64,000 nucleotides of DNA from an uncultured Gammaproteobacteria bacterium (GTDB lineage Bacteria > Pseudomonadota > Gammaproteobacteria > Pseudomonadales > Pseudohongiellaceae). Both the position numbers and the translations under genes were made by a program. This document shows, piece after piece, positions 28,489 to 30,199 of the stretch. Position 1 is the first letter of the stretch. Each line of letters begins with the position of its first letter. The DNA is taken from assembly GCA_913061515.1 (NCBI GenBank), contig CAJXSF010000004.1:34619-98618 (forward strand), given 5' to 3'. The notes beneath the pieces are model-generated. The model was not told the DNA's origin, did no database searches, and saw only the letters and a program-made list of their open reading frames with translations.

Positions 28489-28665
28489 GCATATCTCCTT
28501 GATTGTCTTCTCGAAACTCCCCACATTTATTGGCGCAATCCCCATTCCTGTCCTAGATTTAAATTGTGCTTAGCAATCTGAGACGTCTGATCGCTGAGCT
28601 ATACATTGACGGGCTCGCAAGCAACTTTAAAGGAATAAATTTGAGCAATATATAAGGAGAACAAT

Positions 28666-28884
28666 ATGCGTGAACTAAGCGTAGTTGAGATTGATGAGGT
28701 GAGTGGTGGACGATTTGAAGATTCAGTTCCTTATTTTACAACAATGATTGCAGTTGGGATGTCGACTTTTGGTAGCTCTTGGGGAGCTGTTGGTGTCGGC
28801 TTGGCTATTGCTGTTGCGCCAGCAGCTGTTGGGGTAATGTCTGTTCTTGCCGTTGGTGGTGGCATAGCGCTGATGAGAGACTAG
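28666..28884 (+). CDS. Small peptide with double-glycine leader; candidate class II bacteriocin/microcin-like or other GG-processed peptide
   Basis: MRELSVVEIDEVSGG matches the LSxxE[LI]xx[IV]xGG leader consensus; Gly/Ala/Val-rich hydrophobic core; RBS aaggag before the ATG. Confidence 0.75.
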   Translation: MRELSVVEIDEVSGGRFEDSVPYFTTMIAVGMSTFGSSWGAVGVGLAIAVAPAAVGVMSVLAVGGGIALMRD

Positions 28885-28966
28885 ATGTCGCAGTTATGAG
28901 GCGATAAGTATAGAGGCGAGGTAACGCTCTTAATGTTTCGTTATCTCGTCCTTGGGGGATATGTTT

Positions 28967-30199
28967 ATGACCGACTCTGACATTGGTGGTTGTGATGAGA
29001 TATCTTGCAAGAATTTTGTACTAAATACTGAAAAAGTTTTAGTGCTTTATCCAGTACGCGCAGCATATAAATTTCAATGCCTTCGAGCAATGCTACTAGT
29101 ACTGATTCTGGGCTATTTGCTTTTATATTTGAACTGGATTAGTGATCTTAAAGATCAGAGTTTAATCGTTTCTAGCTTCTATGTTTCTATAGTTATTGTG
29201 TTGGCAATGCTAGTTGTTCTATATCTGGTAATGGCACGATATCAGTTAAATGTAGAAGTTTATAAAGATAGGCTGGAGTATCCAGTTTATTACTTCTGGA
29301 AACGTACACTTAGTTTTAAGGTTGTATTTAGCTTAGAAAGAATTGGATTCGGGGGGGCAGTGCGAGCTTTGGTTGTCGGAAATCTTGACGGTGGTTTGAC
29401 CGTATTCGATAGAAAAAGATTTTCGCGAGAAAGTGATTTTATGGAGCTAGAAACTTTACTTTCTAAGTTGGTAAATGAGAATAAAACTCCAAATAAACGT
29501 TTGAAAACTTTGTATGTCCATGAAAGCAAATTCAACAGTTTTTTGGTTCAGGTTGTGCTTATATTTTTTCTTGTCCTCCCACTTGTGCTTTTAAAAGGTA
29601 TTGCAGAACAAGAGTATTTTGCTGCACTAGAAGTTGGAGCTTTGACTAAATTAGTAGAGAGAGGAGAAGAAATCTATAGATTTTTTTCAGCATTTTTTCT
29701 ACACAGCGGGTCTATACATTTGTTCAGTAACTTGATTGGATTTACTTTTCTTGCCGAATCTCTTTTGCGTCTTTGCGATACTTGCCGCTTTCTTTTCATT
29801 TTACTAGTTTCTGCCTTCATTGGCTCAATAACAAGTCTTTATCTTTCTCCTCACGAATATGTAATTGGTGCGTCAGGAGGAATATTTGGGTTATTTGGCG
29901 CGTACTGCGTCGTCAAGTTCACGAAATACCTGCCAGGTTTAGTGAGTCAGCGATCCAACAAAATGGTCTTTGCAATCATTGCGCTGCAAGTAGCTATCGA
30001 ATACTTCGTCGACGGCATCGACTCCTATAGTCATGTAGGAGGTTTTATTGCCGGTGCGCTTTGCATGGGCTTGTTCCTTTACTTCGCCAAAGAGCAATCT
30101 ATCTACAAATCGACTATGCTTGAAAAAGGTCTCGCAGTGTTGCTTTCGGGTGCCTACATTTGGGGCTTAGCGACTTTCCTAGCGAAGGTGTACGCGTAG
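28967..30199 (+). CDS. Rhomboid family intramembrane serine protease with extra N-terminal TM/PH-like region
   Basis: GASGG (catalytic Ser), HSGSIHLFSNLIGF, YSHVGGFIAGAL (catalytic His), multiple TMs; ATG at 28967 has a GGGGGA RBS (ORF track 28952). Confidence 0.88.
   Translation: MTDSDIGGCDEISCKNFVLNTEKVLVLYPVRAAYKFQCLRAMLLVLILGYLLLYLNWISDLKDQSLIVSSFYVSIVIVLAMLVVLYLVMARYQLNVEVYKDRLEYPVYYFWKRTLSFKVVFSLERIGFGGAVRALVVGNLDGGLTVFDRKRFSRESDFMELETLLSKLVNENKTPNKRLKTLYVHESKFNSFLVQVVLIFFLVLPLVLLKGIAEQEYFAALEVGALTKLVERGEEIYRFFSAFFLHSGSIHLFSNLIGFTFLAESLLRLCDTCRFLFILLVSAFIGSITSLYLSPHEYVIGASGGIFGLFGAYCVVKFTKYLPGLVSQRSNKMVFAIIALQVAIEYFVDGIDSYSHVGGFIAGALCMGLFLYFAKEQSIYKSTMLEKGLAVLLSGAYIWGLATFLAKVYA

Follow-up and report, generated by a model that had tools for sequence, protein, structure and literature searches.

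A conserved gene pair of a double-glycine-leader peptide and a PH-like-domain rhomboid protease: a candidate variant of class II microcin-type systems

A 64,000-nucleotide stretch of DNA from an uncultured gammaproteobacterium (hereafter the window) carries a small gene for a peptide with a double-glycine (GG) leader, followed directly on the same strand by a gene for a rhomboid intramembrane protease. The question raised by this locus is what an intramembrane protease might do beside such a peptide. From sequence comparison and predicted structures, a tentative answer is that the pair consists of a class II microcin-like peptide and a dedicated intramembrane protease that most probably serves self-protection, a reading that is given slightly less than an even chance.

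A first-pass annotation, made from the DNA letters, had marked a 72-aa reading frame with a GG leader. This frame was confirmed at 28666-28884, with a good ribosome-binding site.

28654-28659, + strand: Shine-Dalgarno sequence AAGGAG of the peptide gene, 6 nt ahead of the ATG (from the sequence)
28666-28884, + strand: GG-leader peptide precursor, 72 aa, microcin/bacteriocin-like (open reading frame; conserved in 11 genomes; purifying selection)
28666-28710, + strand: leader MRELSVVEIDEVSGG, with a C39-type cut expected past the GG at 28705-28710 (family consensus)
28711-28881, + strand: mature core, 57 aa, GRAVY about 1.1, Cys-free, three predicted helices

The related peptides described below share the leader consensus M-R-E-L-[ST]-x-x-E-[LV]-x-x-V-[SN]-G-[GA]. 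Their cores have 56-68 residues, a GRAVY of 0.8-1.4 and a Gly plus Ala content of 32-57%, and all but one are free of Cys. Residues G36, W39, A47, P52 and G66 are invariant in the ten aligned members (that of G688 lies outside the alignment). An AlphaFold-type model (pLDDT 76) predicts one helix in the leader and three in the core. When the 3.2 Mb genome was scanned with a strict leader pattern (ATG, Arg/Ser-type codon, Glu, Leu ... Val-Ser-Gly-Gly), the only match was the window peptide. The dN/dS ratio of the peptide is 0.05 between genomes G006 and G012 and 0.14 between G021 and G030; because it is low in two species pairs, the peptide gene appears to be a genuine coding gene under purifying selection, and no positive selection was seen in either pair. 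The window peptide alone matched no Pfam or NCBIfam family. The microcin V profile PF17508 matched four of eight family members weakly (best E 0.0033), the window peptide not being among them, and the NCBIfam matches of family members were likewise marginal. A sequence search of the PDB with the peptide gave no relative, and a promoter scan scored no higher than shuffled sequence.

The next gene on the same strand had been called a rhomboid protease at first pass, and this was upheld by a match to PF01694 (E 1.8e-23) and by intact HxxxxHxxxN, GASGG and HVGG motifs.

28952-30199, + strand: rhomboid intramembrane serine protease (PF01694), 415 aa from TTG or 410 aa from the ATG at 28967
29060-29239, + strand: pair of N-terminal transmembrane helices predicted by the AlphaFold model (32-58 and 65-91)
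29249-29479, + strand: PH-like domain, strands 95-148 and helix 155-171 (model, Foldseek)
29666-30076, + strand: rhomboid domain PF01694, GlpG-like fold (profile match, Foldseek)
29873-29875, + strand: catalytic Ser of GASGG, family-invariant (alignment)
30032-30034, + strand: catalytic His of SHVGG, family-invariant (alignment)

Translation more likely begins at the ATG at 28967, which is better spaced from a GGGGGA sequence than the TTG at 28952. H251, H256, N260, S308 and H361 (P0001 numbering) are invariant in all ten aligned family rhomboids. In sequence and predicted structure the window protein has what is expected of an active rhomboid, namely a Ser/His dyad with the Ser in GxSG, the His and Asn oxyanion residues in TM2 and a GlpG fold. 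The model (pLDDT 72) has, from the N-terminus, two transmembrane helices, a domain combining strands with a helix, the rhomboid core and an extra C-terminal helix. A Foldseek comparison with the PDB matched the core to GlpG (2o7l, TM 0.79 on target), and a second tier of matches was to the PH domains of GRK2, Rtt106, Spt16M and TFIIH p62 (E 0.07-0.15, probability 0.97-1.0). The PH-like assignment of the extra domain is considered good, on a model of medium confidence.

Known rhomboid types were also compared. The protein shares the GlpG fold and the catalytic dyad with the GlpG/Rhom7 quality-control rhomboids, but it has the two additional transmembrane helices, the PH-like part and a constant peptide partner, and identity with the GlpG equivalog was rejected on score (TIGR04239, 39 bits against a cut-off of 250). 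Rhombosortase was rejected as well: only the rhomboid core is shared, the TIGR03902 score is 40.7 bits against a cut-off of 84, and the GG lies in the N-terminal leader of the neighbouring peptide rather than in a GlyGly-CTERM tail. The window rhomboid did not match PF02517, the profile of CPBP proteases.

Rhomboids with this order of two transmembrane helices, PH-like domain and rhomboid core form a distinct clade (single, support 100/100, in a tree with 45 control rhomboids) found in 11 genomes including that of the window. Two lineages carry it: the window's own family, and Massilia together with another member of the family of Massilia. Six full-length homologs were found among 195 relatives; a collection-wide scan returned the same six and one from Massilia horti ONC3, and searches centred on Massilia added three (G589, G598 and G688). 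This rhomboid is rare: no additional full-length member was found in 369 genomes of the class and 399 of the phylum, and within the family of Massilia horti it occurs in 4 of 394 genomes. A 409-aa frame in G506 that had been considered as a member turned out to be another rhomboid. The family rhomboids are 25-30% identical to that of the window and lie in varied genomic contexts.

In all 11 genomes a related peptide with a GG or GA leader is encoded directly upstream on the same strand; in G040 a contig end breaks the pair, leaving the peptide and the start of the rhomboid on one contig and the remainder on another. The first-pass proposal of a paired module is borne out by homologous pairs in ten other genomes, and the co-occurrence check that it recommended found no family rhomboid lacking the peptide (11 of 11 family rhomboids have it and 0 of 110 others), these occurrences being non-independent samples. 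With a fixed leader pattern, and counting only those family rhomboids whose GxSG motif had 1000 or more bases ahead of it, the peptide was found beside 9 of 9 and beside none of the 110 controls. Chance pairing was rejected, given the single strict-leader match in the genome and the unpaired controls. An origin as a phage or plasmid gene was rejected too: there was no full-length phage match, and none in plasmids with the Massilia homolog as query.

The spacer between the two genes contains a hairpin.

28913-28953, + strand: stem-loop between peptide and rhomboid, terminator-like, probable attenuator (folding)

A strong stem-loop was predicted in all nine peptide-rhomboid spacers folded (the window and L006, L007, L009, L010, L011, L095, L228 and L229; z -1.7 to -7.4 against shuffled sequences). 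In G021, G030, G035, G598 and G589 a U-run comes after it, a feature of intrinsic terminators. The window stem has no U-run and its z of -1.7 is unremarkable alone, the recurrence across spacers being the notable point. Partial termination at the hairpin would give much peptide and little rhomboid.

The first-pass annotation had reported no C39 exporter in the window. This is correct, but in the same genome contig C11 encodes an HlyD-type adaptor directly before a 709-aa C39-ABC protein, 38% identical to that of the G589 cluster. G006 and G012 share synteny around the HlyD-C39 cassette, which stands alone in both. Exporter and pair are in trans in G000, G006, G012, G030 and G035, and no GG peptide adjoins the exporter genes of these five. 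C39 exporters are also found in every genus member that has no pair, and the exporter is therefore unspecific to the pair there. In Massilia horti the HlyD and C39 genes, the latter with the sole C39 domain of the genome, are directly adjacent to the pair and divergent from it, and in G589 and G688 the peptide and rhomboid genes are followed colinearly by HlyD and then C39. Of the four Massilia-family loci, three (G213, G589 and G688) have the exporter next to the pair or colinear with it; G598 has C39 genes elsewhere in its genome. Altogether a C39 exporter is present in 9 of the 11 genomes having the pair. In the other two, G021 and G040, no C39 domain was detected at an estimated completeness of 98-100%, and the leaders end in GA rather than GG.

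In G688 (L271, 9909-13394) HlyD and C39-ABC form one 1161-aa frame whose HlyD part seems frameshifted near its end. A weak second C39-type match on contig C12 of G000 (L002, 885-2307) is to a 343-aa lipoprotein-like, non-ABC protein with a TPR-like tail; its gene adjoins that of a 141-aa exported-looking protein.

It had been suggested at first pass that the rhomboid replaces or supplements the usual processing, which in its strong form would make it the leader peptidase instead of C39. The two pair-bearing genomes in which no C39 domain was detected, nearly complete by estimate and with GA leaders, would suit this strong form, but GA is accepted by C39 exporters too (PMC9746304), the leader conforms to the usual C39 type, and draft genomes may miss genes. 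Moreover, rhomboids cleave within the membrane or at its surface, and this leader is not a hydrophobic segment. As an exporter is present in the window's genome and lies beside the pair in three of four Massilia-family loci, the rhomboid is probably no substitute for C39; the suggestion is unsupported and replacement is highly improbable.

The position of the pair on the chromosome was compared between related genomes. In the window a convergent gene lies with its 3' end next to the pair; its 1105-aa product looks transglutaminase-type by eye. In G003 and G007 this slot is empty, the upstream M48 peptidase gene directly abutting the gene for the 1105-aa protein, and G006 and G012 carry the pair at this position but no M48 gene. 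G011 and G013 have a CPBP protease there, together with a different GG peptide whose leader is MRTLG..EIE.VSGG and whose core is acidic; the G011 protein matches PF02517 (E 5.3e-15).

L273 (G013), 162-347, 447-1214, 1537-1722 and 1813-2580: CPBP and acidic GG peptide modules, two in tandem
L274 (G011), 230-997 and 987-1283: CPBP and acidic GG peptide module

In G004 the slot (L272, 4541-8082) holds genes for a 465-aa HlyD-like protein and a 715-aa M50-like membrane protein (FDGYF, by eye), the latter possibly a third membrane-protease type at this slot.

Between the window and G006/G012 the rhomboid is 33%, the peptide 33-35% and the flanking gene 86-88% identical; the pair has diverged while the flanking gene is conserved, suggesting cassette-like turnover. 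If the rhomboid were a general quality-control protease of the membrane, and its gene only a fellow traveller of a functionally unrelated leader peptide, this would fit a variable slot that has other cargo in sister species. Yet the pairing persists across unrelated contexts at only 25-30% rhomboid identity, and it is absent from the 110 other rhomboids, making this the least probable of the explanations considered.

The self-protection reading would operate as follows. A C39-peptidase ABC exporter with its HlyD-type adaptor would recognise the precursor by its GG leader, cut it after GG or GA and export it as a 57-aa hydrophobic helical peptide that would act on the membranes of competitor bacteria. 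The rhomboid, produced from the same unit in smaller amounts owing to the hairpin, would reside in the producer's inner membrane and cleave peptide inserted there, whether unexported or re-entering; the outcome would be self-immunity or quality control. On the cytosolic side, the PH-like domain would serve to hold or recognise the substrate or the membrane. Five points of this scheme are inferred: that the peptide is antibacterial, that it is the substrate, that immunity results, what the PH-like domain does, and that rhomboid expression is lower. There is precedent for some of these steps: bacterial rhomboids of Shigella cleave orphan membrane proteins with metastable transmembrane helices (PMC7232013), and PH-domain proteins take part in transport of the bacteriocin EntDD14 (PMC13262744).

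Cognate immunity genes can directly follow GG peptide genes, as in Moraxella (PMC2761928). The immunity proteins known from class II microcins have only 51-216 aa (PMC9746304), a point against the self-protection reading. No convincing small frame as an immunity candidate was found upstream of, between or after the pair at the loci checked, where only the rhomboid is adjacent, and the rhomboid may be in place of a small cognate immunity protein. SkkI, PlnI and PlnL, of the CPBP/Abi type, protect the producers of class IIb bacteriocins from their own product (PMC8538875). Intramembrane proteolysis of the pair's own peptide is plausible because the rhomboid is at the position of an immunity gene, there is no other candidate, and CPBP proteins set precedents. 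The invariant catalytic residues, the pairing in 11 of 11 genomes, the presence of CPBP with a GG peptide at the same slot and the exporter encoded beside the pair or in trans also argue for self-protection. On the other side, between G006 and G012 the rhomboid is 57%, the peptide 93% and the flanking gene 95% identical; the protease is diverging faster than its presumed substrate, unlike a tight toxin-immunity lock, and this counts against the reading.

Maturation is the strongest competitor of this reading: C39 would take off the leader, and the rhomboid would cut again in or near the membrane-inserted helix, releasing or activating the product. In its favour, the pairing is obligate, the peptide residues G36, W39 and P52 near helix breaks are invariant, and the membrane proteases SilX and SagE are required for bacteriocin or signal production; SilX, a CPBP protease in a bacteriocin locus, was shown to be needed for production and not to be the immunity factor there, which also speaks against self-protection (PMC9298176). 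However, the colinear clusters hold both a C39 exporter and the rhomboid, so leader removal is already covered, the cluster would be left with no immunity gene, and the hairpin suggests small amounts of rhomboid. Immunity is favoured over maturation, which is considered rather unlikely. The pairs of G021 and G040, with no detectable C39 domain, are in favour of maturation and count against an exporter-based self-protection model. A combined scheme, in which the PH-rhomboid acts on a secreted GG peptide as a maturase in place of a C39 protease in these two genomes and as an immunity protease elsewhere, with rhomboid and CPBP proteases repeatedly recruited beside Gram-negative GG peptides, is thought unlikely.

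Pheromones occur among GG peptides, and the peptide could be one that is secreted and then processed by the rhomboid, or whose signal the rhomboid transduces. The precedent of AarA in Providencia quorum sensing (PMC12615303) and the strong conservation of the G006/G012 peptide (93% identity, dN/dS 0.05) are consistent with this. Against it, no kinase or regulator adjoins the pair at the loci inspected and a pheromone would be expected to be shorter and less hydrophobic than the mature peptide, leaving signalling with a small probability.

Among known systems, the pair is nearest to class II microcins of the microcin V type (PF17508; CvaC, CvaAB, Cvi). These have the same form of leader, a Gly/Ala-rich hydrophobic core and an HlyD-type adaptor with a C39 ABC exporter, which here is in the genome or beside the pair. 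The differences are a 400-aa PH-rhomboid instead of a small immunity protein and a core without significant similarity. By the published definition (PMC9746304), the window genome has the N-terminal GG leader, the C39 ABC transporter and the HlyD-type protein of a class II microcin, and what the pair lacks is a small immunity protein adjoining the precursor. The pair may be a variant of class II microcin-type systems, as a candidate member.

Few natural substrates of bacterial rhomboids are known, and a recent review of rhomboids does not mention bacteriocins or microcins (PMC12615303). In open-licence literature no pairing of a rhomboid with a GG peptide was found in Gram-negatives, which is weak evidence of absence. 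The pair offers a small, well-defined candidate substrate encoded next door to the rhomboid in each of the 11 genomes, making substrate and function directly testable. If the self-protection reading is true, protease-based bacteriocin immunity extends from Gram-positive CPBP proteins to Gram-negative rhomboids, and microcin searches that limit immunity proteins to 250 aa (PMC9746304) overlook such partners. The CPBP/Abi immunity proteins SkkI, PlnI and PlnL likewise put an intramembrane protease beside a GG peptide, but the protease here is a rhomboid serine protease, of unrelated family and chemistry, in a Gram-negative host. In the caseicin operons of Lacticaseibacillus (PMC12634818), a gene annotated as a rhomboid protease likewise lies in a class II bacteriocin operon; unlike the window pair, these operons are Gram-positive, of class IIa, and have an immunity gene of their own.
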